Assembly (NCBI GenBank): GCA_031281555.1
Contig: JAITFK010000162.1
Span: 1-43,020, forward strand
Direction of reading: 5' to 3'
Length of the DNA stretch: 43,020 nucleotides
Source: Treponema sp.
GTDB taxonomy: Bacteria > Spirochaetota > Spirochaetia > Treponematales > Breznakiellaceae
The notes under the pieces: generated by a model
The model's input: the letters and a program-made list of their open reading frames with translations, nothing else
Told to the model about the DNA's origin: nothing
The model's database searches: none
Made by a program: the position numbers and the translations under genes
Shown: positions 18,913 to 38,800 of the stretch, one piece after another
Numbering within the stretch: the stretch's first letter is position 1
Layout of the letters: each line of letters opens with the position of its first letter

Positions 18913-19652
18913 AAAAAATATTGGTATTTTTTTATATTGTGACTCTTTTTTCCTCATGTATGAGTATAAACCGCAGCAGGGAAGAACTAAATGTACCTCT
19001 GTCTTATGTTATTTTCAGTTTTGATGACGGTCCGAATATTCACGAAGAAACCACAAACAGACTGCTTGACATATTAGAGTTATACGAAATTAAAGCCATA
19101 TTTTCCCTGCTTGGCGAAAGAGTAGACGCAAATCCGCAGATTGTAAAGCGTATGTATGATGAAGGTCACTGTATTGTAAACCACGGTTATTCAGATAAAT
19201 GGGCGCGAGGCATGAGAGAAGCTGAATTTCGTGAAAATCTTTTAAGGGGAGGGCAGGCCATTTCAAACGCCATCGGAAGGGAATTTGACCCAAAATTATA
19301 TAGACCGCACGGAGGCTATTACAATTCCAAACAGATAAATATATGCAATGAAGAAGGCTATTTAATAATTAACAGTAATATCAGAGTTTATGACGCTGTT
19401 TTACCAGGAACGAAAAAGGATAAAGTAGTTAAAAGCGTAATTGTAAAAGTCGAAAAACAGGGAGGAGGCATTGTACTTCTTCATGACGCGAGGGATTCAA
19501 ATTCACGTATGGAAGAAGAATTAACAAAAGCCCCAAACGGCGCTTTTAACCGCTCGTGGATTCCTGAAACTACGGAAAAATTGATTATATTACTTAAAGA
19601 AAGAGGGTATATGATCGGAAGTCCTGATATTGTTATTCAGAATAATCCTTGA
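18909..19652 (+). CDS. Polysaccharide deacetylase (NodB-like) lipoprotein
   Basis: The 247-residue protein has a signal peptide with lipobox FSSC (Cys17) and the NodB-fold motifs FSFDDGPN (catalytic and metal Asp), IVNHGYSD, RPHGGYYN and GIVLLHDA. The second motif is normally H-S/T-x-x-H; here the second His position is Asp, a known but less usual variant, so metal binding may differ. Its substrate is unknown. It overlaps the acyltransferase stop by 4 bases, so it belongs to the pigment transcript, though such enzymes are not standard in aryl-polyene clusters. Its 3' end overlaps the oppositely directed KS gene by 20 bases. Confidence 0.82.
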   Translation: MKKILVFFYIVTLFSSCMSINRSREELNVPLSYVIFSFDDGPNIHEETTNRLLDILELYEIKAIFSLLGERVDANPQIVKRMYDEGHCIVNHGYSDKWARGMREAEFRENLLRGGQAISNAIGREFDPKLYRPHGGYYNSKQINICNEEGYLIINSNIRVYDAVLPGTKKDKVVKSVIVKVEKQGGGIVLLHDARDSNSRMEEELTKAPNGAFNRSWIPETTEKLIILLKERGYMIGSPDIVIQNNP

Positions 19653-20859
19653 ATATCAATGACGTATTTATTCCGCCGAACGCGAAATTGTTTGACATAA
19701 TATATTGAGTTTCAATCTTTCGTCCTTCTCCTATAATATAATCAAGAGGTCCGCAACTAGTATCAATGTCATTCAGGTTAATATTGGGACAGAACCATTT
19801 TTCTTTCATCATCATAATTGAAATCCACGCCTCAATTGCGCCGCAGGCTCCAAGCGTGTGTCCGATATAATTTTTTAAAGTACTTACGGGAACTTTTCTT
19901 TGAAATACGTCAACTGTAGCCCAGCTTTCCGCGATATCGCCTGCGTCTGTCGCTGTTCCGTGAGTGTTGACATAACCTATAACAGACGGATCAACGTTTG
20001 AATCTTTTAAAGCAAGCTGCATGGCAACTCCCATTGTAGATCGATTAGGCTGTGTAATATGGCTGCCGTCCGTGTTTGTCCCAAATCCGACAACCTCCGC
20101 AATTATCCTTGCTCCGCGTTTTTTTGCGTGCTCATATTCTTCAAGAATAAAGGTTCCTGCTCCTTCGCCGACCACCAAACCGTCGCGTTTTTTGTCATAA
20201 GCGGCGGGAGTTTTTTCAGGAGTTTCATTTTTACAGCTTGCGGCAAACAAAGTGTCAAAGACAGCGGCGTCCGCAGCGCTTAATTCTTCCGCTCCGCCTG
20301 CCAGCATCAGATCCTGATGACCATGTTTTATGGTTTCGTACGCAAAACCAATTGCCTGGCTGCCGGATGTACAGGCTGTATTAGTTGTAATAATTCTCCC
20401 TGTTAATCCCAGAATAACGCCGATATTCGCAGCGCATGTCTGCGGCATCGCCTTTATGTAGGTTGTGGCGTTCATTCTGTTATTATCGTTAAGTATGAGC
20501 ATGCTGTAAAAATCAAGAAGGGAATCTATACTGCCCATTGAAGAGCCGTACGCAACGCCGCATCTGCCGTTTTTAAGCATTTGATCGTTGCGGCTAATAC
20601 CCGCGTCCGATAACGCTTTATCAGCTGAAGCAAAGGCAAGCTGCGCGACCCTTCCAAGTCCGCGAATTATTTTCCTGGGATAATCAGGCAGCGCGGAATC
20701 TACAGGAGCCGCGAGTCTTGTATTCATACGGGTATACTTATCCCAGTCATTCATGCGCCTGACACAGTTCTTTCTTGATTTCAAATTTTTCAATATATCG
20801 TTCCATTCACTGCCCAACGCGCTAATGACAGAACCGCCTGTTATGACAACACGCTTCAT
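19633..20859 (-). CDS. Beta-ketoacyl-ACP synthase (FabF-like), aryl-polyene KS
   Basis: The 408-residue ketosynthase has the complete Cys-His-His triad: Cys163 in NTACTSGSQ, His300 in NTHGTATDAGD and His334 in IGHTLGACG. It should condense malonyl-ACP with the growing polyene. The C-terminal NNFAFGGINTSLIF is typical of KAS II. It is the last gene of a minus-strand operon (lipoprotein, KS, dehydratase, ketoreductase, KS) and overlaps the ketoreductase stop by one base. Confidence 0.92.
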   Translation of the reverse strand: MKRVVITGGSVISALGSEWNDILKNLKSRKNCVRRMNDWDKYTRMNTRLAAPVDSALPDYPRKIIRGLGRVAQLAFASADKALSDAGISRNDQMLKNGRCGVAYGSSMGSIDSLLDFYSMLILNDNNRMNATTYIKAMPQTCAANIGVILGLTGRIITTNTACTSGSQAIGFAYETIKHGHQDLMLAGGAEELSAADAAVFDTLFAASCKNETPEKTPAAYDKKRDGLVVGEGAGTFILEEYEHAKKRGARIIAEVVGFGTNTDGSHITQPNRSTMGVAMQLALKDSNVDPSVIGYVNTHGTATDAGDIAESWATVDVFQRKVPVSTLKNYIGHTLGACGAIEAWISIMMMKEKWFCPNINLNDIDTSCGPLDYIIGEGRKIETQYIMSNNFAFGGINTSLIFKDYSE

Positions 20860-21587
20860 TAAACCATTCCTCCGTTTACGGATATTACCTGCCTTGTGAT
20901 ATAAGAGGCTTCTTCAGAAAGCAGGAATACTGCCAACGCGGCGACTTCTTCGGGTTTCCCGATTCTACCCATAGGTATGGACGGAAGAATTTTATCAAGC
21001 GGCGCTTCTCGGATCATATCGGTTTCGATTATGCCGGGCGCAATACAGTTTACTGTAATTGAACGGCTCGCAAGCTCAATCGCAAGCGCCTTTGTCGCCC
21101 CTATGATTCCGGCCTTTGCAGCACTGTAGTTCACCTGTCCGCGGTTTCCCGTAATTCCCGATACTGAAGAAATTGTAATTATTCTGCCCTTTTTTTTACG
21201 GCAGATCGGCATTATAAGAGGGTGAAGTACATTGTAAAAACTGTCAAGGTCGGTGCGAAGAACAGAGTCCCATTTTTCACCGCTCATACCGGGAAAAGAG
21301 TCATCCGCTGAAACTCCCGCGTTGCAAATAACGCCCCAGAAAGCTCCGTTTTCATCCTGCCATTTTTCAAGTTTTTCCCGGCATTCGTTTCTGTCTGAAA
21401 CGTCAAATTGAATTAATTCAATAATACCGCCCTTTTCATGAATTTCCTTTTGCAGGGATTCAGCTTGTTCTTTTCCTTTATTGTAATGAGCAGTAACAGA
21501 ATAGCCGGCGTTTGATACCGCTAGAACAATAGCTCTGCCTATACCTCCGCTTGCGCCTGTTATAAACACTTTTTTTTCTTTATTCAA
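20859..21587 (-). CDS. 3-oxoacyl-ACP reductase (FabG-like)
   Basis: This SDR enzyme reduces the 3-keto group during polyene elongation. It shows TGASGGIGR for NADPH binding, CNAGVS, and the catalytic Ser-Tyr-Lys in SSVSG and NYSAAKAG. I take the TTG at 21587 as start (242 residues): AAGGAG stands 8 bases before it, the family normally begins with a few residues before the KVFITGASG strand, and it lies 4 bases behind the dehydratase stop. A longer frame to 21632 would overlap that gene and add 15 unsupported residues. Confidence 0.9.
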   Translation of the reverse strand: MNKEKKVFITGASGGIGRAIVLAVSNAGYSVTAHYNKGKEQAESLQKEIHEKGGIIELIQFDVSDRNECREKLEKWQDENGAFWGVICNAGVSADDSFPGMSGEKWDSVLRTDLDSFYNVLHPLIMPICRKKKGRIITISSVSGITGNRGQVNYSAAKAGIIGATKALAIELASRSITVNCIAPGIIETDMIREAPLDKILPSIPMGRIGKPEEVAALAVFLLSEEASYITRQVISVNGGMV

Positions 21588-21591
21588 AATT

Positions 21592-22092
21592 CTAAGCTCC
21601 TTCAGTAATAGCTTTAAATTGTTTTTCATCATGAATTTCCATAACCATTAACTTGCCTTCCATTGCTTTTTTATTTTCTATAAATATTTCACCTTCAAAA
21701 GTGTATATTTGATCTGTGCGGTCGCATTTTTTCAAACGGATATCGGCAACGCTGCCTTCCTTCAAAACAGGTATATATATTTGCATTAACGGGACGCTGA
21801 GTATAAAACCGATTTTCGGTTTTATACCTGTAAACCTGCTGTGTAAACCTGAAAAAGCGGAAATGGTCTGAGCCATAAATTCAAAGCCGACCCAACTGGG
21901 TACGCCTTTTAATTCGGTATTATAAAACAGACATGCTTTTGTTATTTCATATTCCGCTTTGATGATTTCTTTTGAATCACATTCCGTGATTCTGTCAAGA
22001 AGAAGCATTTTACCTCTGTGCGGTACTAGTGTTTTTAGTTCTTCCTTATTGATTGGAAAACTATCGCCGGAAATATAATTGTTATTGAGCAT
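21592..22092 (-). CDS. 3-hydroxyacyl-ACP dehydratase (hotdog, ApeP-like)
   Basis: The 166-residue hotdog protein has LVPHRGKMLLLDRI, with the catalytic His of the FabZ/FabA fold, and WVGFEFMAQTISAFSGLH, with the acidic partner on the central helix. It dehydrates 3-hydroxyacyl-ACP to leave the double bonds of the polyene. It lies between the second ketosynthase (11-base overlap) and the ketoreductase. A second hotdog domain is fused to the ligase at 34000-36045. Confidence 0.87.
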   Translation of the reverse strand: MLNNNYISGDSFPINKEELKTLVPHRGKMLLLDRITECDSKEIIKAEYEITKACLFYNTELKGVPSWVGFEFMAQTISAFSGLHSRFTGIKPKIGFILSVPLMQIYIPVLKEGSVADIRLKKCDRTDQIYTFEGEIFIENKKAMEGKLMVMEIHDEKQFKAITEGA

Positions 22093-23290
22093 TTGGCTTA
22101 CTCCTTCCTAGTATCAAAGAGACATTACATCCGCCAAAAGCAAAATTATTGTTCATGCAAATTGACGGCGGTTCGCTATTCTGTGTGCGCGGGTAAAACG
22201 GAAGCTCTTCATCTTTTTCGCCGTCCCAGCAATGTAGGGGAAGCCCTTTTTTCATGTTTAAAGTCATCCAGCATATTGCGGTTTCAAGAGATCCTGCGGC
22301 TCCAAGGGTATGGCCTGTAATTGGTTTAATAGAGCTTGAAGGAGGCATCGAACCGGAAAAAACATCCTTCATGGCAAGAGCCTCCGCTTTATCATTAAGT
22401 AATGTACCTGTACCATGCAAGTTAACGTACCCTATCTGTGAAGGCTCAATTCCGGCATTAGCAAGAGCAGCCTTCATCGCATTTGCGGGCCCGGCGCCGT
22501 CAGTTCCGGGAGCTGTCATGTGATATGCGTCGCAGCTTTCACCATAACCCATAAGTTCAATAGCTTCTGATTTTGCAGAAGGTATTGTATCCAATACAAA
22601 AAACGCCGCTCCCTCGCCAAGATTAATGCCTTTCCTGTTTTTGCTGAAAGGATTTGCGAGATTTTCGGATAGCGCTTCCAGTGCGTGGAAACCAAGAAGA
22701 ACAGTTTCTGAGACAACATCCGCGCCTCCGGTAATTACCGCGTCACAAAACCCCGAACGTATAAGTTCGGCCCCTCTAATAATTGCGCTGGCTCCGGATG
22801 CACACGCCGTGGCGGTTGTAATAACAGGGCCTTGAAGGCCAAATTTGGCTGCGATAAATTCTGCGGCGAATGAAGCGCTTTGAAAACGTAAATTGTAATC
22901 AGCCGGAAAAGCTCCGTTTTCCAGCAGCTTTTTATGAGCAAGAAGTGAACCTTCCGAACCGTTGTCGCAAGAGCCGAGACAAACGCCTATTCTCTCTGCG
23001 CCGTATTTTAAAATTACATTTTCAATTTCTGCCCGTATTTGTTCCAAAGCCGTGTCAACGAGCTTGATAATTTTTGTGCCGCCTGCATAAGCTAACGGTT
23101 CTTGAACCGGCGAATAAGGTAAGTTTTGTTTTTCCGGCATCACAATCCCTGTAGGGAATTGCCTGCCGTCAGGTAATTCTCTCATTTTTAAGCCGCCTTG
23201 ATTACCTGTAAGGCAGGATGAGTACAGTTCATCTTTGTTTTGTCCGGCGCAGCAAATAAGACCCGGAGGAGAAAGATAAATTTTTTTCAA
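22082..23290 (-). CDS. Second beta-ketoacyl-ACP synthase of the cluster
   Basis: The 402-residue ketosynthase keeps all catalytic residues: Cys163 in TATACASGASA, His292 in NLHGTGTLLNDKAEA and His327 in ITGHTLGAAG. In other aryl-polyene systems one KS-like subunit pairs with another and sets chain length; nothing in the catalytic residues marks this one as an inactive chain-length factor, so either it condenses too or it pairs while keeping its triad. It diverges clearly from the KS at 19633. It overlaps the lipoprotein gene by 4 bases. Confidence 0.9.
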   Translation of the reverse strand: MKKIYLSPPGLICCAGQNKDELYSSCLTGNQGGLKMRELPDGRQFPTGIVMPEKQNLPYSPVQEPLAYAGGTKIIKLVDTALEQIRAEIENVILKYGAERIGVCLGSCDNGSEGSLLAHKKLLENGAFPADYNLRFQSASFAAEFIAAKFGLQGPVITTATACASGASAIIRGAELIRSGFCDAVITGGADVVSETVLLGFHALEALSENLANPFSKNRKGINLGEGAAFFVLDTIPSAKSEAIELMGYGESCDAYHMTAPGTDGAGPANAMKAALANAGIEPSQIGYVNLHGTGTLLNDKAEALAMKDVFSGSMPPSSSIKPITGHTLGAAGSLETAICWMTLNMKKGLPLHCWDGEKDEELPFYPRTQNSEPPSICMNNNFAFGGCNVSLILGRSKPNAQ

Positions 23291-23859
23291 CTAAAATCGC
23301 CTCCAAGCGCATAGCTGTATCCCCGCAGATTATTTTTAAGAATTACTGTATCTTGTTTTAACTCAATTTCAATTATTATATCATTTCCCTTTTGAATACG
23401 GCGAATCGTTTTGTCAATTTCAAGTACAAGCCCGCATTTTTCAAGCGCTTCGCTAAGAGCGTCGGTTTTGTAGAAACAAAGTTGAAAATCGGCTACAATG
23501 TACTCAGGCTGCAATGATTTCGGCAAAACTGGAGATGAAAAATAAAGAGCGTTCTCTTTATAGGAAAGGCTTCCCATATTTGCGCCAAGTTCATTAAATA
23601 ATGAGATTTCCATTCCGTTTTCATCTGCTTGGACCCATGCGTTTAAATAGAATTCACTGCCTTGCCATGAAGCTGAAATAAACTGAGCCATGTCCATTGA
23701 TTTTTCTATTTTTTCAGGAGGCAGTAACACAAATTTTGAATTGTTTGCGAGCCAGACATAATGTTGTTTTTCGTTTTTATCAGACTGAGAAAAACAGGAA
23801 CACAAGGATATGAGAATTAAAATGATTGCCGGATGTTTAAACCGGATTAATAAATTCAA
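23287..23859 (-). CDS. DUF3261-like lipoprotein of the aryl-polyene cluster
   Basis: The 190-residue protein has a signal peptide with Cys22 (LCSC) as the likely lipidated residue, then a beta-rich body (YVWLANNSKFVLLPPE; SLSYKENALYFSSPVLP; PEYIVADFQLCFY). The pattern of a PPE segment, an outer surface strand and a YI-x-AD-x-Q motif fits the DUF3261 lipoproteins regularly present in aryl-polyene clusters, probably in product transport or anchoring at the outer membrane. The start is TTG with GGAAG 7 bases before it. It is first in its operon. Confidence 0.75.
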   Translation of the reverse strand: MNLLIRFKHPAIILILISLCSCFSQSDKNEKQHYVWLANNSKFVLLPPEKIEKSMDMAQFISASWQGSEFYLNAWVQADENGMEISLFNELGANMGSLSYKENALYFSSPVLPKSLQPEYIVADFQLCFYKTDALSEALEKCGLVLEIDKTIRRIQKGNDIIIEIELKQDTVILKNNLRGYSYALGGDFS

Positions 23860-28828: not shown

Positions 28829-31195
28829 TTAACCTTTTTTGACAGATAAGAGCATCGCGGAAATAAAAGCCGCGCTTAAGCCTGAAGAAACTGTTAAAGC
28901 AAAAATGTGAACCGGTATAAAACTACTGAAAACCAGCGCGCCGAAAGAAAGGAGTGTTGTTAAAAATGACAATGATACCGCGAGCCTTGTAAACGCTGTT
29001 TCTCCGCCGGCTGAATTAAGACTTCCTGTCATGTAAAAAATAAAATCAAGACCCAATCCAAAAACCATGATTAATCCTGCAACGGGGAAAAATCCGAGAG
29101 GAATACCGGATAATGTTAACGCGGCAAGGGCGGAGAGTATAAGGAAAAAGGGAACAGAACATATTTTAAGAATATCTCGTCCGGAATAAAAAACAAAAAC
29201 AAGGATAAATATAGAAACACATGCGGCAATGAAAAAATAAATCATTGTTCTTGTAAGCGTATCCAAATCACGGCTTATATCTTTCGCTTTATTAATAAAA
29301 TAAACAAAATAAAATTCTCCTGCTATTGATCTGTAAATTTCTTCATCTGCGGAATTAACAGGCAAGACACAGGAATAATAATTTCCGTTTATTTCACCTA
29401 TCCAAAAATTTGAAATTCCGGTAGCGACGGGCGCGTTTTCAGGAAAGCAGTATTGCGCGTTTAAAGCAAATTCATCGTAATATATTTCCATGTATTCAGG
29501 AGGAAAACCAAGATATTGATACTGGGTCTTTACAAGCGGCAACAAAGACTTCATCGCTTCGTAAGTTTCTTTCTGCTTTTTTACAGAAGGAACAAAAACA
29601 GAAGTCCCAAGAAAAGAGTCCGCTCTTTGTACGGAAGATTCTTTTTCAAGACGTTGAATTAATTTTTCTTCATTTTCGAGTGTTTCCTCAGGACTTCTTC
29701 CTGAAACAATAAAATACCAGAATGAAGAACTCTGCGCTAAAACACGAGCCCTGATTTTTTCTGATTCCAGCATGGAAGAAGACATTGTATAAAGTGATGA
29801 AACGTCATTTTTTATTTTTATGCCGCGCGGATGAATAAAAATAATAAACAAGCAGATTACACAAAGGATTACGATAATTACGATCCTTACGGCAGGCGGC
29901 AATGTAAATCTTTTAAAACAGGGAAAAAACTTGCCTGTAAAAAATTCAAGATTCCTTTTTTGGGGTACTTTAATACATGGGAAAAAACAATAGACGCTGA
30001 GAAAGGAACTGGCAAGCCCTGTCATGGAAAAAACCGCGAATTGTTTTAATATGGGAAACGGCGCAAGCAAAAAGGAAAAAAAACAAACCTCTGTTGAAAT
30101 AAAGCACATGATGATGCTTTTTGATATATGAGAGCGAATTTCATTTCCGTTTTTTAATGCAGTATTTCCTTTCCAGTGTATAAAAAAATGTATTGAATAA
30201 TCGACGCAGGTACCGATAAGCGTTGTGCCGAAAACAAAGGTGATAATATGTACTTCCCTGAAAACCAAAAGCGCCGCCGCTGTCGCTATAACTAATGATA
30301 ACAGCGTGTCAAAAAAAGATAAAAAAACAGGAAGAGGAGAGCGGAATATATAGATGAACAGCGCAAGTATAATTAAGAGCGCAATGGTACTGATAACTGA
30401 TATTTCCCTTTGCGCTTTTGAAGAGCTTTCGTAACTGTGAAAAGGAACTCCTGAAAAATAAAATTCAAGATCAGGCGTATTTTTTTTTATTTCATCCGCT
30501 GCCGCGTATATTTCTTTTATTATATTCCTGCCGCCGCTTACGGAAACTGCCTGCGGAGAAAGGGTCATACGTAAAAGCACATACCATTTCCCGTCGATGT
30601 TAGCGGATAAAACATCATCTTTAAGACCTAAACTGTCTCCTGATAACAGCGATGACGCAAGATCCTCCACTCGTCTTTGCGTAAGAAGAAAAGGGTCTTT
30701 ATCAATATTGTCCAATGAGACAAAATTGAACGCTCCGTAGGCGGCGGCAAGAGCGTCTTCTGCGATTTCATCCGCTCTGCCGTTTTCCAGAAAATAAAGA
30801 GTTTCTTTTCCTGTTATGACAAAACGGTACTTATAAAAAAAATCGTTTAGCTGTGCTATTACAGAAGAATCAAAAAAAAGCGAAAGTTGATTAACATTTG
30901 GTGATTTTTCAAACACAGTAAATAAAGAAACGGCGCCCTTTTTCGCGCTTTCAAAATCAGGTGCCGCAGCAAGAATAACCGCTTCACCTGCGTTTTTTTT
31001 ACTTAGAATGTTATCCGCTTTTACGGCTTCTTTTGACTGCGTCGATTGCGGAAGCATATCCTGGAGCAGGGTATTAACGCGTACAGGACCTTTCAATAAA
31101 ACGGAAAGTCCAAGTAACACGGGAATCGTGAAATGAAAAAACAGCCAAAACCGAATGGATTTAGTTTCAAGGTATTGTAAAATATGCTCTTTCAT
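28829..31195 (-). CDS. MMPL/RND-family exporter of the aryl-polyene cluster
   Basis: The 788-residue protein has the layout of MMPL-type transporters: one N-terminal helix, a large periplasmic domain, five clustered helices (about 270-400), one helix (about 440-460), a second periplasmic domain and a final helix cluster (about 650-780). Polar residues in FGTTLIGTCVDYSIHFFIHW and in VFGLGLDFIFYM match the proton-relay helix positions. Aryl-polyene clusters carry such a protein, presumed to export the lipid-linked pigment. It overlaps the LolA-like gene by 29 bases. Confidence 0.88.
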   Translation of the reverse strand: MKEHILQYLETKSIRFWLFFHFTIPVLLGLSVLLKGPVRVNTLLQDMLPQSTQSKEAVKADNILSKKNAGEAVILAAAPDFESAKKGAVSLFTVFEKSPNVNQLSLFFDSSVIAQLNDFFYKYRFVITGKETLYFLENGRADEIAEDALAAAYGAFNFVSLDNIDKDPFLLTQRRVEDLASSLLSGDSLGLKDDVLSANIDGKWYVLLRMTLSPQAVSVSGGRNIIKEIYAAADEIKKNTPDLEFYFSGVPFHSYESSSKAQREISVISTIALLIILALFIYIFRSPLPVFLSFFDTLLSLVIATAAALLVFREVHIITFVFGTTLIGTCVDYSIHFFIHWKGNTALKNGNEIRSHISKSIIMCFISTEVCFFSFLLAPFPILKQFAVFSMTGLASSFLSVYCFFPCIKVPQKRNLEFFTGKFFPCFKRFTLPPAVRIVIIVILCVICLFIIFIHPRGIKIKNDVSSLYTMSSSMLESEKIRARVLAQSSSFWYFIVSGRSPEETLENEEKLIQRLEKESSVQRADSFLGTSVFVPSVKKQKETYEAMKSLLPLVKTQYQYLGFPPEYMEIYYDEFALNAQYCFPENAPVATGISNFWIGEINGNYYSCVLPVNSADEEIYRSIAGEFYFVYFINKAKDISRDLDTLTRTMIYFFIAACVSIFILVFVFYSGRDILKICSVPFFLILSALAALTLSGIPLGFFPVAGLIMVFGLGLDFIFYMTGSLNSAGGETAFTRLAVSLSFLTTLLSFGALVFSSFIPVHIFALTVSSGLSAAFISAMLLSVKKG

Positions 31196-31820
31196 TTATA
31201 CTTAATTCCGAAGGATAACTGTGATTTGACAATATATATCCGGTGCTGTCTCCGTTTTGCTCAAATATAAGTATTGATTTAATTACCGAGTCTCCTTTCA
31301 TTACAATTTTTTCGGTAATGGAAGCAATAAATTTGTCTTTAGGGATTAGTCCCATTTCCCAGTTATTATTAACACCGATAAAATAAATATCAAAGTTTTC
31401 AGTTAATTTTTCAGTATTCCCCGTAAACACCGCGCTTATAACTTCCGCTAGACGGATAAACGTCTCATTTCCTTGCGCTGATAATACAGTTCTTTGGCTT
31501 CCCTTTGACTGTATTATGTAATCTTTACCGAGTGTCATTACGGAAGGGAAAGGTTTTAAAGTATCCCATACCATGCCTGATCCCGACACAATCAGAAAAT
31601 TGCCTGAAGAAACAAGGGCCCTGTTTAACCGGTTTATTTTTTTTTCCTGCTCAAAATTGCCTTTAGCAATACTATGTTCAGCTAACCTTGCTGATATTTT
31701 TGTAAAATGGTCCATTGTCAGCGGGCTTAAAGGATTGTCAAAAACAGAACTATTTTGTTCGTCAGCCCATGATGTTACCGCAAAAAAAGAAAGGCATAAA
31801 ATGAGAAGGAACTTTTTCAT
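31167..31820 (-). CDS. LolA-like outer-membrane lipid/lipoprotein carrier
   Basis: The 217-residue protein has a signal peptide (likely cut after SWA, residue 19) and a LolA-type beta half-barrel: KGNFEQEKKINRLNRALVSSGNF is the usual F-x-Q-x-K strand with the following S-G-x-F strand, and VWDTLKPFP corresponds to the W-x-x-x-x-P turn. It should carry a hydrophobic product through the periplasm. In aryl-polyene clusters a LolA-like protein accompanies the MMPL exporter, as here. Confidence 0.83.
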   Translation of the reverse strand: MKKFLLILCLSFFAVTSWADEQNSSVFDNPLSPLTMDHFTKISARLAEHSIAKGNFEQEKKINRLNRALVSSGNFLIVSGSGMVWDTLKPFPSVMTLGKDYIIQSKGSQRTVLSAQGNETFIRLAEVISAVFTGNTEKLTENFDIYFIGVNNNWEMGLIPKDKFIASITEKIVMKGDSVIKSILIFEQNGDSTGYILSNHSYPSELSINERAYFTIP

Positions 31821-32269
31821 GATTTTTTTCCGTTAATTAATGATTCAACTTTTTTAATTAATATTTCAGGACATTCAAAGCAGGATTTTTCTTTCTTTAA
31901 ATCATAAGCCATTTGAGTACTGACACCTTTTGTTATAAGCTGCCCTGTCCGTATATTACGGATTTCGTATCGTATTCTGAGAAGATTTTCATATTCAACA
32001 AGTATTGCTCTTACTATCGCGCGATCTTTATAATGAAGAGAGCCGATGTACTTAGCTGATATTTTTGTTACAGGAAACGCGAAACCGGATTCTTCCATTT
32101 TGTTGTAGTCATAACCTATTTTTTCAAGAAGACAACGGCGTCCAATTTCAAAATAATTAATATAGTTACCGTGCCAGACAACCTGTAAAGGATCGACATC
32201 ATAGAATTCAACGGTTATTTCTTCTTCCGCCCAAATGTTATAAGGCCCGTTGTTTTCTGTTGGTTCCAT
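31817..32269 (-). CDS. 4HBT-type thioesterase
   Basis: The 150-residue hotdog protein has YDVDPLQVVWHGNYINYFE, the catalytic Asp motif (Asp24 or Asp26) of 4-hydroxybenzoyl-CoA/YbgC-type thioesterases, with the VWHGNY helix. It probably releases or edits acyl chains on the cluster ACPs. It overlaps the LolA-like start by 4 bases and sits 2 bases behind the LpxL-like gene. Confidence 0.87.
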   Translation of the reverse strand: MEPTENNGPYNIWAEEEITVEFYDVDPLQVVWHGNYINYFEIGRRCLLEKIGYDYNKMEESGFAFPVTKISAKYIGSLHYKDRAIVRAILVEYENLLRIRYEIRNIRTGQLITKGVSTQMAYDLKKEKSCFECPEILIKKVESLINGKKS

Positions 32270-32271
32270 TA

Positions 32272-33258
32272 TTATACCCCTTTTGACCAGAAATTAAAAA
32301 AATTATACCACTGAAACGGATGTTTTTTACAGTACAATTCAAGAAACTCAACATAGGAAATTGCCAGATTCCGGCTGCGTGTAAGGCGTTCCCTTTTTGT
32401 ACAATCAAAAGAAATACTGCATTTATGTACATGCATGTCATATTCAGGTATAAGGGACAATTCTTTCCGCCGTAAAGCAAAGATGAAATATACTGACACA
32501 TTCATCAACGCTGCCAAATAAAATACTCCGTGCGAAAACGGCGCCTGTTCACCAAGAAAGGGGAGCATAAGGTTTTTTTCAGTATCGGAGACTGAAGTTC
32601 TGTCTCCCGCTATTACCGCAAGTTCCCCGGCTTTCAGTTTTTCTTCAAGAAGAATTACAGTATAAGGATCTATTGTTTTGGCGTTAATTGTATCCATACC
32701 TGCCTGAGGATTTAACTCTTTAAGTATTTTCTTAAAACGCGCGGTAACTTCCGTGTCTATTATTGACGTAATCTTTATATTCCGCGATACGCCGGTTTGG
32801 TTAAAACTTGCAAGTCCTCTTAAAAGCTCCATATTTCCGATATGAGAAATTATAATAAAAGCGCCGTTTTTATTTTCCAGTTCCTGAATAAGTTCTACTA
32901 TGTTGTCATCCTGAAAATGAATGTCTTTAAATCTGAACTTGCCGCCCCATGCCTGAAGTTTTTCAACCAGTGAAAGTGAAAATGAAATAATGTGGCGTAA
33001 CGCGCCTAAAGGAGATCGGCATTTTTTTACAAGAACCGAGTCTTCTATAAATGAAACTGCTTTTTCTAAAAAACGCCTTGATTCTGTTCTTCCTTTTTTA
33101 GAAAAAAGGAAATAGAAAAACCCAACAGGGAACGCAAAAACGCGCAGAATTATAACAGGAAATATCTTAAAAAGGGTGAGCAGAATCTGCGTTTGCCAAT
33201 AGGCCGCTTGTTCTTTTTGCCGCGACCAGTGAATTGAATCTTGTTCATCTTTTTTCAT
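32272..33258 (-). CDS. LpxL/HtrB-like acyltransferase
   Basis: The 328-residue protein has an N-terminal membrane anchor (about 25-50) and the lipid A late acyltransferase pattern: ISHIGNMELLRGL (HX4E), DRTSVSDTEK and FSHGVFYLAA. LpxL-type enzymes transfer acyl chains from ACP to a lipid acceptor. In aryl-polyene clusters this type is thought to move the polyene chain to its lipid or sugar carrier. It overlaps the GT2 gene by 14 bases. Confidence 0.86.
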   Translation of the reverse strand: MKKDEQDSIHWSRQKEQAAYWQTQILLTLFKIFPVIILRVFAFPVGFFYFLFSKKGRTESRRFLEKAVSFIEDSVLVKKCRSPLGALRHIISFSLSLVEKLQAWGGKFRFKDIHFQDDNIVELIQELENKNGAFIIISHIGNMELLRGLASFNQTGVSRNIKITSIIDTEVTARFKKILKELNPQAGMDTINAKTIDPYTVILLEEKLKAGELAVIAGDRTSVSDTEKNLMLPFLGEQAPFSHGVFYLAALMNVSVYFIFALRRKELSLIPEYDMHVHKCSISFDCTKRERLTRSRNLAISYVEFLELYCKKHPFQWYNFFNFWSKGV

Positions 33259-34003
33259 ATTTCTTTTTTCCGCGTTTTAGCTTTAAAACAATCAGCATTG
33301 GTAAACGTATCAGCATACCGATAAAAAGACGGCTGAACATCCAGCTTATGTGCAAATTGTCCTTTATCATTCTGAAATTGGAAAAACCGTTTTGAGGATA
33401 GTTTATTCTTACGTCATGAAAAACCGGAAATACCCCATTCCAGTACAGGCGTACCAAAATTTCAGTATCAAAACCCATGCGTTTGTCCATAAAAGGGTCT
33501 CTTGTAATTCGAAGCGATTCCTGTACTGGGTAAACCCTGTATCCGCAAAGTACGTCCTTCAATTCGTCTGAAAGAGTAACAATCGCTCCCCATAAGTTGG
33601 AAATCTTTCGGCCTGTTACTCTGCTTCCCGGAGCGGATTTATCAAATACCGGATAACCGCAGATGATTTTTTCAGGATGCTTCGCTGATTCTTCAAGAAA
33701 AAACGCGGCTGTTTCCAAATCATGCTGACCGTCAGCGTCTATCTGAAAAACATGGGTCAATCCAAGCTCAACCGCTTTTTCAAAACCATGAGCAAGAGCG
33801 CCTCCCTTGCCGATGTTTTTTTTCAAACTGACAAGAACGGTTTGAGTATTTTCCGCGGTTAAATTTTTCAGGAAAGCTTTATCTGAAGGACTATTTCCGT
33901 CATCAATAATTATTACTGGAATATTAAAACAGATAAGTTTTTTTATCAGTTGACCGACTGTACCGCAGTGACGGTAAACCGGAATTATAAACCCCTGTTT
34001 CAA
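33245..34003 (-). CDS. Family-2 glycosyltransferase of the cluster
   Basis: The 252-residue GT2 has FIIPVYRHCG, VIIIDDGNS, a nucleotide-sugar site with FQIDADGQHD (DxD-like) and LCGYRVYP. A C-terminal hydrophobic stretch (about 222-245) could touch the membrane. It probably glycosylates the lipid carrier of the pigment. It overlaps the ligase fusion stop by 4 bases. Confidence 0.88.
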   Translation of the reverse strand: MKQGFIIPVYRHCGTVGQLIKKLICFNIPVIIIDDGNSPSDKAFLKNLTAENTQTVLVSLKKNIGKGGALAHGFEKAVELGLTHVFQIDADGQHDLETAAFFLEESAKHPEKIICGYPVFDKSAPGSRVTGRKISNLWGAIVTLSDELKDVLCGYRVYPVQESLRITRDPFMDKRMGFDTEILVRLYWNGVFPVFHDVRINYPQNGFSNFRMIKDNLHISWMFSRLFIGMLIRLPMLIVLKLKRGKKKYEKR

Positions 34004-36045
34004 CTAACCTCCGAAATTATTATAGTTCCATATGAATAAGTTTTATTCTTTTCCGGTGAATAAATTTTAAAGGTAATTAATTTATCATTCTTTTCTATTT
34101 TTATAAATAAATGAGCGTCGGGCCGGATTAATCCGGTAAATTTGATTCTCTTAATATGCGAAAGACATATTCCGGTTCCAAAGTGTTTGGAAGCGCATTT
34201 CATAATCAGATCGATTTGACCTACAGCGGGAAGAATCTGAAACTCCGGAAAATGTCCGTCAAAATACGGACTTGTGCCAAGAATTGTAAATTCCAAAATA
34301 ACTGAATTATCCGTTTTTTCAATGACAGACATCCCGTCACTAGTAAATAAAGATTTTATTTCTTCTTTGTTTTTTTTCCCTTGTGTATTAACGGGCAGTG
34401 TTTCAAGGTAACGCCATTTTTTAGGGATAACTGTATTATCAAAATATTGTAAAAGGTATTCCTTCCAAAAATTATTTATCTTTTGTTTTTCTAAACATGA
34501 GAACTTTTCTTTGCCGTTATCATTAAAGACTACGGCGGCAGCAAGGTACTGGCGTCTTTCTTCCATGGCGATAATACATACATCAGCGGCAAGACCGGAT
34601 TCCAGAATACGGTTTTCCATTTCCAAAAGCGAAACACGTTTTTCTTCTATTTTTACAAAAGAATCAAGGCGTCCCTTTAAAATAAAATGTTCTTCATCAA
34701 TAATTTCCGCCAGGTCGGCTGTTTCAAAACCCGCCGGCTCCTTGATATACGGAGATTGGATTAAGAGGCAGCCTTCTTTATTACAGCTAATACGCGCGTT
34801 GTCAAATACTGTCCATTGCGATCCTTTATCTGAGCTTCGCCATGCGATGCCGGAAGTTTCCGTACTGCCGTAAATTTCAACCGGCCAAAAACCGAAAACC
34901 CGGGAGGTTTTTTGAGCGGTATCAAAATCAAGAAGTCCGCCGGAAGTAAAAATCCAAGGAGAAACAAGATTTAAATTTTCTGATTTTTCTATTTCTACGG
35001 CGCGTTTTAGAAAAGCCGGCACTGAAATGATCATATATTTTACATCGATTAATTTTTCAAATTCTTCAGGGAACAGGATTCTTTGTCTTCTGAAGGGAAT
35101 CCCTGAAGTAAAGGGCAGGAGTATTGAAAAAAGAAGACCGTAAATATGATGCTGGTTTACTGTTGAGCAAAGTTTACGATCAGGAAATTCTTCTCCCCAT
35201 TTTGAAAGTATAAAAAGATTGTCGTTTTCAAATTCGATAAGGCGCTGTTTAACAGCCTTAGGTTTTCCCGTACTTCCCGAAGTAAACATAATAATCGATG
35301 TCTCATCTCCGTTAATTGGCGGCAGTTCCCGCTCAATTCCCTTAATATTATCCGCGGTATTTTCCAGCATAGCGGAAATAAAAAAAGTATTTTCCGGTTT
35401 GCTGTCATTTGAAAATTCCAGATCTGTAAGAAAAGGAATTGTACCTGTATCTGTATTGCGGATTTCTGCGATATAGGAGGCTCCTGTATTCGCGCTGAGT
35501 AAAACTTCTTTTTTGCATTGAAGCAGGCTTGTAAAAGCAAGCAAAAAAAACCAATAATCGTCGCAATATAAAAGCCATTTGTCGCTTTTGACAGTTTCAA
35601 TCTGAGCGCGAAGTTTGGCAGTACCTTCAAGAAAATCCGCCCATGTCCTGTATTTATTATCGTTCCATGCGCCTTCATAACATAAAACATCAGAAAGATT
35701 ACGTGATTTTTTTTTGACAGCTGTCAGGGGAATTGCTTTTGGTATAGTTTTTTGCACTTTTTTCCTGACCATAAATTCTACGGCAAAAAGTATACCCATT
35801 AAAAGGTAAGAAATACCGCCGTTGTAGACAGACCAAAGTATATCCGAACCGGAAAAAATAGTCCAGATTGACAGATTTCCGTTAAAAATGAAAAAACTAA
35901 CCCAAATTACGGTTACTTTACGGCAATAATTCTCAATTTGTCTCTTTCCCGGTGAATAACGGATAGATTTATCCTGAATTACAGCAATTCTATAGATCAT
36001 TGACGGCGGTTTAACAAGAGTAATCCCGAACGAGCCGAGAAACAA
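34000..36045 (-). CDS. Aryl AMP-ligase fused to hotdog dehydratase, with C-terminal half of COG4648 membrane protein
   Basis: Residues 1-100 match the C-terminal half of the COG4648 membrane protein (PPSMIYRIAVIQ, VTVIWVSFFIFNG, SYLLMGILFAVEFMVR). Residues 115-570 are an adenylate-forming ligase: IIMFTSGSTGKPK (251-263), YGSTETSG (392-399), KGRLDSFVKI and LPVNTQGKK. It should activate an aryl acrylate and load it on an ACP. Residues 575-681 are a second hotdog dehydratase, with YFDGHFPEFQILP (His598). The frame stays open upstream of this ATG as far as the A10 tract at 36159-36168, where the N-terminal COG4648 half lies in another frame. A single A added there, or two removed, would give one three-part protein of about 790 residues starting at 36368. 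Confidence 0.88.
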   Translation of the reverse strand: MFLGSFGITLVKPPSMIYRIAVIQDKSIRYSPGKRQIENYCRKVTVIWVSFFIFNGNLSIWTIFSGSDILWSVYNGGISYLLMGILFAVEFMVRKKVQKTIPKAIPLTAVKKKSRNLSDVLCYEGAWNDNKYRTWADFLEGTAKLRAQIETVKSDKWLLYCDDYWFFLLAFTSLLQCKKEVLLSANTGASYIAEIRNTDTGTIPFLTDLEFSNDSKPENTFFISAMLENTADNIKGIERELPPINGDETSIIMFTSGSTGKPKAVKQRLIEFENDNLFILSKWGEEFPDRKLCSTVNQHHIYGLLFSILLPFTSGIPFRRQRILFPEEFEKLIDVKYMIISVPAFLKRAVEIEKSENLNLVSPWIFTSGGLLDFDTAQKTSRVFGFWPVEIYGSTETSGIAWRSSDKGSQWTVFDNARISCNKEGCLLIQSPYIKEPAGFETADLAEIIDEEHFILKGRLDSFVKIEEKRVSLLEMENRILESGLAADVCIIAMEERRQYLAAAVVFNDNGKEKFSCLEKQKINNFWKEYLLQYFDNTVIPKKWRYLETLPVNTQGKKNKEEIKSLFTSDGMSVIEKTDNSVILEFTILGTSPYFDGHFPEFQILPAVGQIDLIMKCASKHFGTGICLSHIKRIKFTGLIRPDAHLFIKIEKNDKLITFKIYSPEKNKTYSYGTIIISEVS

Positions 36046-36092
36046 TAAAGTGATTAGAACGGGATAGAATTTCAGGAAAATGCTGTTGTTTG

Positions 36093-36368
36093 TTAAAAGA
36101 CAGATAACGCCTGCGCCAAGAAGAAGCAGGGAAGACCAAGCGAAAGATTTGGTACGGCTTTTTTTTTTGAAGCGCCTGCGGTAGTACCGGCGGTACTACC
36201 TGCGGAAGTTCCGGCGATAAAGGTAAAAAGAGCAAGAGCAATAACGAAAAAGGAAAGTTGTTTAATCTGAATTTTTTGTATTACAAGAAAATAAAAAATA
36301 AGCAACGGATAAATTATTGATGCGGAATATAAAAGTATTCTGGTTATTAGCTTTAGTTTAGCTGACAT
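36093..36368 (-). CDS. N-terminal half of COG4648-like membrane protein, frame lost at A10 tract
   Basis: The 91-residue frame starts with two membrane helices (about 8-28 and 36-52), then a low-complexity loop of G-S/T-S/T-A repeats and Lys residues. After the A10 tract the frame gives a short unrelated tail and stops, while the adjacent frame continues with LLLLGAGVICLL and the rest of the family. It is therefore the 5' part of the gene whose 3' part is the ligase fusion. Its ATG overlaps the ACP stop (TGATG), so it is normally coupled in the operon. Confidence 0.7.
   Translation of the reverse strand: MSAKLKLITRILLYSASIIYPLLIFYFLVIQKIQIKQLSFFVIALALFTFIAGTSAGSTAGTTAGASKKKAVPNLSLGLPCFFLAQALSVF
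36159..36168 (-). other. A10 homopolymer at frame change
   Basis: Ten consecutive A on the minus strand mark the exact point where coding passes from the COG4648 N-terminal frame to the frame of the ligase fusion. A11 or A8 would restore one continuous gene. Such tracts are sites of replication slippage (phase variation), of transcriptional slippage, and of sequencing error; the sequence alone cannot tell these apart. Confidence 0.8.
36165..36212 (-). repeat. 12-bp imperfect tandem repeat with hairpin beside the A10 tract
   Basis: On the minus strand four 12-base units follow each other: GGAACTTCCGCA, GGTAGTACCGCC, GGTACTACCGCA, GGCGCTTCAAAA, encoding GTSA-GSTA-GTTA-GASK. At 36181-36199 the repeats form a perfect hairpin (8-base arms GTAGTACC/GGTACTAC, 3-base loop). 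It lies just before the A10 tract in the reading direction. Confidence 0.75.
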
Positions 36369-36616
36369 CAGGGTATGGCAATAAGAGGGTGGAGTATATC
36401 CACAACATCCTGAATGGTAATTGCCTTTTTAAACTGTTCAGGCTCAATTTTATCTTTTACATATTCTTTCATTTTTACCATTAGATCAACCGCGTCAATG
36501 GAATCAAGTTCCAAATCCGCGTAAAGTTTGGTATCCTTGTTGATAAAGTTTTCGTCTATTTCAAATTCTTTGCTTAATATTTCTTTTATCCTGACAAAAA
36601 TTTCTTCCTTGCTCAT
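36368..36616 (-). CDS. Acyl carrier protein 2
   Basis: The 82-residue ACP has the phosphopantetheine site DLELDSIDAVDLMVK with Ser39. It is closely similar to the divergently placed ACP at 36987 over its length (FxxIKxIL, LYxDLxxDS, F-K-x-A-x-x-x-Q-D-x-VDI), so the two are paralogues. It overlaps ACP1 by 4 bases (ATGA) and the membrane protein start by one. Confidence 0.92.
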   Translation of the reverse strand: MSKEEIFVRIKEILSKEFEIDENFINKDTKLYADLELDSIDAVDLMVKMKEYVKDKIEPEQFKKAITIQDVVDILHPLIAIP

Positions 36617-36876
36617 GAAGCTCCTCCCGCGGCTTCGATGTATGCCGCAAGAGCGTCTACTGAAGCAAAATGTTTTTTATTATCCGCATTTTCCGCTGAA
36701 AATTTAACGCCGAATTTCTTTTTTAAAGCTATTCCCAGCTCCAGGGCGTCTATGGAATCAAGCCCCAATCCCTCCCCGAAAAGAGACGCTGAATCAACAA
36801 TATTTTCAGGTTTTACATCTTCCAGTTCCAAAGCATTGATGATTAACTCTTTTATCTGCTGGTTTAAACTGCTCAT
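36613..36876 (-). CDS. Acyl carrier protein 1
   Basis: The 87-residue ACP has EGLGLDSIDALELGIALKK with Ser41 as attachment site. It differs from the other two ACPs of the cluster (FAS/type II PKS-like DSIDALEL, then KFGVKF), suggesting division of labour between starter loading and elongation. It is first in the eight-gene minus-strand operon. Its ATG falls 6 bases after a consensus TATAAT, so the transcript would begin at or next to the start codon; the normal ACP length supports this start. Confidence 0.92.
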   Translation of the reverse strand: MSSLNQQIKELIINALELEDVKPENIVDSASLFGEGLGLDSIDALELGIALKKKFGVKFSAENADNKKHFASVDALAAYIEAAGGAS

Positions 36877-36986: not shown

Positions 36987-37244
36987 ATGGGGTTTTCCTT
37001 GGATAAAAATAAAATTTTTCTTGAAATAAAAGATATATTAGTTTCTGAATTCAAGTTAGAAGCTGATTCAATTAACTCTGAAAAAAGATTGTACGATGAT
37101 TTAGATATTGATTCACTTGATTTGGTCGATCTGGTATTATGCCTTAAAGAGCACATCGGTGAGAAAATCGATCCTGGTCTGTTTAAAGAAGCTTGTATTG
37201 TACAGGATTTGGTAGATATAGTTGACCCTTTTTGGAAAAATTAA
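36987..37244 (+). CDS. Acyl carrier protein 3
   Basis: The 85-residue ACP has DDLDIDSLDLVDLVLCLKE with Ser43 for phosphopantetheine. It is a paralogue of ACP2 but alone on the plus strand with its own promoter. Its stop overlaps the ammonia-lyase stop tail to tail by 4 bases. The ribosome binding site is weak (GCGGATAGA). Confidence 0.9.
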   Translation: MGFSLDKNKIFLEIKDILVSEFKLEADSINSEKRLYDDLDIDSLDLVDLVLCLKEHIGEKIDPGLFKEACIVQDLVDIVDPFWKN

Positions 37245-38800
37245 CAGCTTTCATTTTTAAAATGAAGCCGGAAATGCTTTTCTTCTATTAACGACAATGT
37301 TTTTCGTAAATCAGCTTCAAGCGGGCGATCGTCTTCAAGCGGTCTGAAAAAAGCGGAAATTTCATCAAAAGTTTCCTTTGTCTTTCCAAGATCGTCATGC
37401 TTTAATTCGCCGTTTTTCAATCTTAAATCAATAGCCTGAAAAGAGGCAAGCAGGGATGCTGCCATTACCTGCGCGGTTAATTTATTTACTCTAACGCAGT
37501 CACGGGCGGCGATAGTTCCCATACTTACCTTGTCCTGGTTATGACATTCAGTTGAACGGGAAAAAACGCTCATAGGCATCGTATTTTTTAACGCTTCGGC
37601 AGTCCACGCGGAGACAGCAATTTGTACCGCTTTAAAACCGTGATTGCAGGAAATATTATTTTTATTTCCTGTCAAATTTGCGGGAAGTCCGCGGTTGTAT
37701 TTTACGTCCACCAGCATGGCAAGCTGTCTGTCAATAAGGTCTGCAAGATTTGCGATAATGTTTTTTAATGAATCCATCGCGAAACAAATGTGTCCTCCGT
37801 AAAAATGCCCGCCATGGTAAACAGATCGCCTTTCGCTGTCAATCAGGGGATTATCATTGGCGCTGTTCATCTCGGTCTCAATAAAATTCCGTAGGGTATC
37901 GCTCATATCAAAAAAAAGCCCGATAACATGAGGGGCGCACCGTATTGAATAATTGTCCTGAATACGGGCAGGAGCAGTCTGTAAACCTTGTCTTTCTACG
38001 GGAAGGCTTTTTCGTATTTTTTCCGCGGCAAGCGCCTGTCCCAAGTGGGGTTTAAGCTCAAAAAACCGCTGGTTAAAATGGTAAGCGTTGCCCTTCAGTG
38101 CTATTGAATTCATCGCGGTAATACGGCAGGCGAGGTTCGCAAGATACTCAGCATCATGAAACGCGAGCGCTGCAACAGCGTTCATAACAGCTGTCCCGTT
38201 CATAATGGCAATTGCTTCTTTGGGACGAAATTTATAAGCCTGCTTTCCAAGTTCAGTAAGAACGTCAGCGGATGAGCGCTCTCTCTCCTTGTACATTACC
38301 TGCCGTTCTCCGATTAACGCCCCGGCGAAATATGAAAGAGGAGTAAGATCGCCTGACGCGCCGACAGAGCCTTCCTGCGGAACAAGCGGAAGAATGTCAT
38401 TTTCGATAAAAAACGCCATTAATTCCAGCAGTTCCATACTGACTCCTGAATAACCCTGCGCCAGGGTATTAAGCCGTACAATCATCAGCGCTCTGACTGT
38501 TTGCGCGTCAAAATAATCTCCCATTCCGCAGCCGTGAAAGCGTGTCAGGTTTACGGGAAGTTCGCTGTAGTGTTCAGAGCTTACCTGTTCGGCACATGAA
38601 TCACCGTACCCTGTTGTTACGCCGTATACACCGCCGTGTTTTCCCAAAGTTTCATCAAGAAAATCTGCGCCCGCTTTAATTTTTTCTTTGAATTCGACAG
38701 ATTGACAAAGAGTCACTTTAAGCTGTTTTTTCGCTGCCGAGGCAAGATTTTCTATCGTAAGACAATCACGGCCAATTTCAAGCGTATTCAGGTTCATCAT
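37241..38800 (-). CDS. Aromatic amino acid ammonia-lyase (MIO family) of the pigment cluster
   Basis: The 519-residue lyase has the Ala148-Ser149-Gly150 triad in GSVGASGDLTPLSYFAG that forms the MIO prosthetic group, catalytic Tyr59 in YGVTTGYGD, and MNSANDNPLID. It removes ammonia from His, Phe or Tyr. The substrate-selectivity pair, read by aligning the NLTRFHGCGMG segment with known enzymes, is Phe88-His89, which is neither the Ser-His of HutH nor the His-Leu or Phe-Leu of well-known TAL and PAL. Position next to an aryl ligase and ACPs points to making a cinnamate or coumarate starter rather than histidine breakdown; no other hut gene is near. No good ribosome binding site is seen. Confidence 0.88.
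   Translation of the reverse strand: MMNLNTLEIGRDCLTIENLASAAKKQLKVTLCQSVEFKEKIKAGADFLDETLGKHGGVYGVTTGYGDSCAEQVSSEHYSELPVNLTRFHGCGMGDYFDAQTVRALMIVRLNTLAQGYSGVSMELLELMAFFIENDILPLVPQEGSVGASGDLTPLSYFAGALIGERQVMYKERERSSADVLTELGKQAYKFRPKEAIAIMNGTAVMNAVAALAFHDAEYLANLACRITAMNSIALKGNAYHFNQRFFELKPHLGQALAAEKIRKSLPVERQGLQTAPARIQDNYSIRCAPHVIGLFFDMSDTLRNFIETEMNSANDNPLIDSERRSVYHGGHFYGGHICFAMDSLKNIIANLADLIDRQLAMLVDVKYNRGLPANLTGNKNNISCNHGFKAVQIAVSAWTAEALKNTMPMSVFSRSTECHNQDKVSMGTIAARDCVRVNKLTAQVMAASLLASFQAIDLRLKNGELKHDDLGKTKETFDEISAFFRPLEDDRPLEADLRKTLSLIEEKHFRLHFKNESC

Follow-up and report, generated by a model that had tools for sequence, protein, structure and literature searches.

Results

The window, by which we mean the whole stretch of 43,020 nucleotides analysed here, belongs to a Treponema sp. 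assembly of 212 contigs that is 83% complete. Between positions 19633 and 38800 it contains all components of an aryl polyene (APE) gene set, comprising acyl carrier proteins, ligase, ketosynthases, ketoreductase, dehydratases, thioesterase, LolA-like carrier, MMPL/RND exporter and DUF3261 lipoprotein, as identified by Pfam matches (those of the ApeI-like and LpxL-like domains being below the cut-off). On the minus strand, genes for an ApeE-like (36613..36876; PF00550) and an ApeF-like acyl carrier protein (36368..36616; PF00550) lie just upstream of a gene encoding a COG4648 membrane domain, and the stop codon of the second shares bases with the start ATG of the ApeG part (TGATG). On the downstream side, the same strand encodes a family 2 glycosyltransferase and an LpxL-like acyltransferase that represent the first and second halves of ApeJ (33245..34003, PF00535, and 32272..33258, PF03279, the latter just under its cut-off), a thioesterase (ApeK, 31817..32269; PF13279), a LolA-like carrier (ApeL, 31167..31820; PF03548), an MMPL/RND exporter (ApeM, 28829..31195; PF03176), a DUF3261 lipoprotein (ApeN, 23287..23859; PF11659) and, according to Pfam, ketosynthase ApeO, dehydratase ApeP, ketoreductase ApeQ and ketosynthase ApeR (19633..23290). 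The downstream acyltransferase and exporter genes, which a preliminary description suggested might be switched together with the ligase, each have their own ORF. An aromatic amino-acid ammonia-lyase, also encoded on the minus strand (37241..38800; PF00221), probably supplies the aryl starter, and a third acyl carrier protein gene (36987-37241, plus strand) is located between the acyl carrier protein pair and the lyase, divergent to the ape operon. The split gene described below is predicted to be an ApeG-H-I fusion within a complete aryl polyene cluster.

The gene is divided between two overlapping segments in different frames. The N-part ORF (36093..36368, minus strand; 91 aa), defined by ORF, half-domain HMM, dN/dS and hydropathy, comprises TM1-TM2 of COG4648 (the N half of ApeG), a loop rich in Lys and an out-of-frame tail that is not conserved, and is the product predicted without slippage. 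The C-part open frame (34000..36195, minus strand, stop to stop; 731 aa), defined by ORF, Pfam and half-domain HMM, comprises TM3-TM6 of COG4648, an acyl-ACP ligase (ApeH) and a hotdog dehydratase (ApeI). Within the Lys-rich linker between TM2 and TM3, the minus strand reads exactly ten As at 36159-36168, flanked as CTTC-A10-GCC, and this C-A10-G tract is the candidate slippage site. Stop codons alone confine the frame switch only to 36195-36093. Frame classes were assigned using HMMs of the two COG4648 domain halves trained on single-frame homologues; in the window these assigned the N and C halves to different frames, and one additional nucleotide at the A10 unites both halves into a full product of about 789 aa. 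A preliminary description of this locus had held that the frames meet exactly at the A10 and that one extra A restores an unbroken COG4648 match; the half-domain HMMs bear out the latter, and selection, which switches frame at the tract, the former. As in genes with programmed transcriptional slippage, an A/T run of at least about nine nucleotides lies where the two frames join. Adjoining the tract, at positions 36170-36207, imperfect repeats (GSTAGTTAG) make up a 24-nt insertion that the closest relative lacks.

By hydropathy, the Lys-rich loop containing the tract is preceded by two helices and followed by about four. The shorter product would thus be a membrane peptide of two helices, and the longer one a ligase/dehydratase anchored in the membrane. 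TM3-TM6 fall approximately at 35767..36147 (minus strand; hydropathy and C-half HMM match). They are followed on the same strand by an ApeH-like AMP-dependent ligase domain with approximate limits 34342..35718, supported by 4-coumarate ligase-like matches and by an AMP-binding match in the C part (PF00501, E 3e-15), and by an ApeI-like hotdog dehydratase domain (34066..34314; PF22818, 24.9 bits, under the curated cut-off of 28.5). For an intact homologue, AlphaFold2 yielded an unreliable model (mean pLDDT 51), of which only the helix break at residues 47-52, the site of the Lys loop, agrees with the hydropathy profile. The three-part COG4648/ligase/hotdog fusion, previously regarded as unusual, is common in this order, where single-frame fusions of approximately 790-830 aa are found in many relatives. 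Other arrangements also occur. One homologue (L037, G038:C4) has COG4648 fused in frame to the hotdog domain, with neither ligase nor tract. Four homologues (L012, L013, L014 and L016, in G007, G016, G021 and G034) encode a 629-aa membrane-ligase form with its own ATG, in which helices 1-2 are absent and the hotdog domain is a separate gene. In a further homologue (L069, G233:C335), COG4648 is apparently fused to the hotdog domain alone; this ligase-less form retains the A10 and the frame change, which indicates that the tract belongs to the membrane domain.

Homologues were searched in the genus and family of the window, their frames were sorted by the half-domain HMMs, and 40 linkers were compared. 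The family searched (f1) probably corresponds to the termite-gut Breznakiellaceae, and the genomes compared included the metagenome genome Nc150P3bin10, named 'Brevinematales bacterium'. The closest homologue, with 84% nucleotide identity, shared both the A10 and the frame change, and had a 24-nt (3n) indel just upstream of the tract that leaves the frame relation unchanged. An exact A10 at the homologous linker was present in 18 genomes, the window's and 17 others, representing 18 species and about a dozen genera that are not phylogenetically independent. Fourteen of these need +1 to join the halves, one (G029) needs -1/+2, and three (G189, G199 and G200) are in frame. In all 14 +1 cases, the tract is preceded by C or G and followed by G. 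The longest A-run per linker was A8 or shorter in 20 homologues, A9 in one, A10 in 18 and A11 in one (L011); the A9 and A11 homologues and all 20 with shorter runs are in frame. In a Treponema-like family of the same order (f3), matches lay in single long open frames, and the three linkers inspected base by base had runs no longer than A7. In the domain tree, most deep branches of the enzyme-fused COG4648 clade carry the tract, whose distribution requires at least eight gains or losses. No closed genome carrying the tract was found, and the tract is known from metagenome assemblies. Because many relatives and the Treponema-like family function without it, slippage is dispensable for the function of the enzyme.

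Runs of ten As are rare in these genomes. The window's genome contains 13 A10 tracts and one longer run in 2.49 Mb, and the 17 relatives contain other A10 runs at about 1.5 per Mb (2-9 A10 runs per genome); by chance, approximately 0.002 such tracts would be expected across the 40 linkers. All 18 genomes use AAA for each of the tract's three Lys codons, while AAG makes up 8-54% of the Lys codons in these genes (P ~1e-10, with kinship ignored) and is used at the tract's Lys positions in tract-free homologues. The slippery run is thus kept beyond what the codons require, as in programmed transcriptional slippage genes. Other coding A10/T10 runs in the window's genome and its relatives are in frame (e.g. 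L082, L086, L088, L089, L092, L095, L099 and L111), with L118 as a possible exception; runs of this length therefore seem to be assembled correctly, and a genome-wide habit of frame changes at A10 was rejected. L095 (G143:C86), a uracil-DNA-glycosylase-like gene with an in-frame A10 near its start codon, serves as a control. At L118 (G046:C279, near 10125), a T10 run separates two ORFs that are read in different frames: upstream, with 402 open codons, one resembling a phage portal gene, and downstream, with 491, one resembling a minor head gene. This run may be a second slippage site or merely mark overlapping genes. The sole run of at least 11 As in the window's genome (L093, C27:2888-2898) coincides with the overlap between the 3' end of an AbiEii-like ORF and the following ORF, which is in a different frame.

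Selection was estimated from three species pairs sharing the frame change, using the first 50 codons past the tract for the C frame. The dN/dS values were 0.11-0.36 for the N half and 0.08-0.30 for the C frame directly past the tract. The same post-tract bases read in the N frame gave 0.85-1.34, as expected for neutral sequence. This pattern indicates that the frame switches at the tract, that both frames are functional and that the tail of the truncated product is unconserved. Purifying selection thus acts on both frames up to the run in all three pairs, a further property of programmed transcriptional slippage genes. After the tract, the C frame lacks ATG, GTG and TTG for 113 nt in the window, 127 nt in G171, 187 nt in G143 and 154 nt in G142. 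Since this start-less stretch, which codes for TM3, is conserved in the C frame, independent initiation does not explain expression of the ligase part and was ruled out.

Discussion

Slippage of some kind at the A10 is strongly supported by the comparative data, and programmed transcriptional slippage is the best explanation of them, with a probability that we put at roughly 0.6. The preliminary description had proposed slippage or phase variation at the run; recurrence in 18 genomes strengthens the case for slippage, and its transcriptional form is favoured over phase variation. In this model, a minority of transcripts would gain one A through slippage of RNA polymerase on the A10. mRNA lacking the extra A would yield the short two-helix peptide, with a stop soon past the tract, and slipped mRNA the 789-residue membrane-anchored ligase/dehydratase; the ratio of the two would cap the amount of enzyme relative to the carrier proteins, whose genes lie immediately upstream. 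In species with an in-frame A10, slippage would instead yield a minority of truncated product. We infer transcription, not translation or DNA switching, to be the agent, and likewise infer the ratio of the two products and any role that the short one may have. Homopolymer indels are frequent, yet the A10 stays out of frame in 14 lineages, which suggests, as an argument and not a measurement, that low full-length output is favoured.

The tract exceeds the threshold for transcriptional slippage of roughly nine As (PMC1088944). On poly(A), insertions by E. coli RNA polymerase are at least twice as frequent as deletions (PMC6260861), in line with the 14 (+1) to 1 (-1/+2) distribution of frame classes. 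The suggestion that slippage is suppressed in Borrelia (PMC1088944) counts against slippage in spirochaetes, as do the many tract-free relatives and the unconserved tail of the short product. RNA structure beside the tract showed no excess either upstream or downstream (p 0.7), and a hairpin stimulator on either side was rejected. Among the papers searched, none connected aryl polyenes or Treponema with slippage.

A true length of A11, or a dead gene, now appears very unlikely, although the preliminary description took assembly error to be the main rival and every genome with the tract is a fragmented metagenome-like assembly. The same A10 and frame change recur in the 84%-identity relative next to its 24-nt (3n) indel and in 12 further genomes from close and distant genera, the assemblies do report A11 in L011, where that length is in frame, and both sides of the tract have dN/dS values well below 1. 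This recurrence, together with the in-frame A10 controls, led us to reject assembly error as the cause of the split. Ribosomes could also produce the full-length protein by -1 frameshifting on A_AAA_AAA while the mRNA remains A10. The direction required in 14 genomes is indeed -1, and A-rich Lys codons cause ribosome sliding (PMC4363877). We nevertheless consider this improbable: A_AAA_AAA is present in the zero frame at the tract but A_AAA_AAG, the best of the X_XXY_YYZ heptamers used in such frameshifting, never is, the tracts of the +1 class occupy phases 0 or 2 only, and neither a downstream stem-loop nor a consistent upstream Shine-Dalgarno sequence, the stimulators of dnaX-type -1 frameshifting, was found. 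Moreover, one genome requires the opposite direction and three require none, and all keep the A10.

Length changes of the A10 during DNA replication would produce ON (A11) and OFF (A10) cells, with the assemblies representing the majority OFF state. A run of ten is long enough for hypermutability, one A11 and one A9 homologue are both in frame, and the purifying selection on the C part would fit with ON cells being rare. Such phase variation is unlikely, however, as a contingency locus would be expected to show mixed lengths and many ON states. Among species the lengths are instead 18 A10, one A9 and one A11; the class that needs A11 comprises 14/15 with A10 and one with A11, with no A9 or A12, and the A10 is also retained where it is in frame. 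The tract might otherwise be a tolerated accident, in which an A-run arose by drift, indels put the gene out of frame, slippage rescued it and changes to AAG then became unacceptable for as long as the run stayed out of frame, with no regulatory benefit. Long A runs hardly escape slippage, tract-free homologues work and the truncated tail is neutral, all of which would suit such a history. With frequent indels, however, selection for full-length output should have brought back an in-frame A11 in most lineages; the A10 is also pure in the three in-frame genomes, and the length distribution is sharply peaked at 10. We regard an accident of this kind as improbable too.

Returning to transcriptional slippage, we tentatively propose a broader form, at somewhat less than even odds: a family-wide A10 transcriptional slippage site in a natural-product enzyme of gut spirochaetes would have been kept across about a dozen genera, with polymerase stuttering, not a regulator, setting the amount of membrane-anchored starter ligase and yielding a second product, a membrane peptide of two helices, and with length held at ten whatever frame results. 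To our knowledge, few slippage-dependent chromosomal genes are conserved across genera. If the proposal is true, it adds a cross-genus example from secondary metabolism, one whose length is constrained unusually sharply (to A10). The natural variants (+1, -1/+2, in frame and without a tract) form a ready comparative series on the purpose of such sites. In addition, annotation pipelines will call the ligase broken in many spirochaete metagenome genomes, so that aryl polyene clusters in abundant gut bacteria would be hidden.

A direct parallel is the tssM pair. Citrobacter rodentium tssM1 has an A11 with approximately 20% slippage, shown by western blot, GFP fusions and mass spectrometry, and in its in-frame counterpart, Yersinia pseudotuberculosis tssM3, slippage gives a truncated form (PMC4256274). 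These genes likewise have an A-run in an envelope-protein gene, with Lys codons AAA, that one homologue carries out of frame and the other in frame. They differ in gene and pathway and in having an experimentally studied A11, whereas the present site is an A10 at one place in 18 species, known from sequence alone. Thermus thermophilus dnaX (A9, in frame) and Shigella mxiE (a U run) are also cases of RNA polymerase slippage on a homopolymer, giving two products with a common N-terminus (PMC1088944), but neither encodes a biosynthetic enzyme. The aryl polyene cluster of E. coli CFT073 has the same order of ACP-ACP-COG4648-ligase-dehydratase-GT/acyltransferase-thioesterase-LolA-RND, but there apeG, apeH and apeI are three separate genes (PMC8253772), whereas here they form one fused gene split by a frame change. 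Finally, homopolymeric phase-variable (contingency) loci of host-associated bacteria resemble the present locus in having a hypermutable coding homopolymer in an envelope-modifying pathway; here, in contrast, the length is nearly invariant (A10) across genera.
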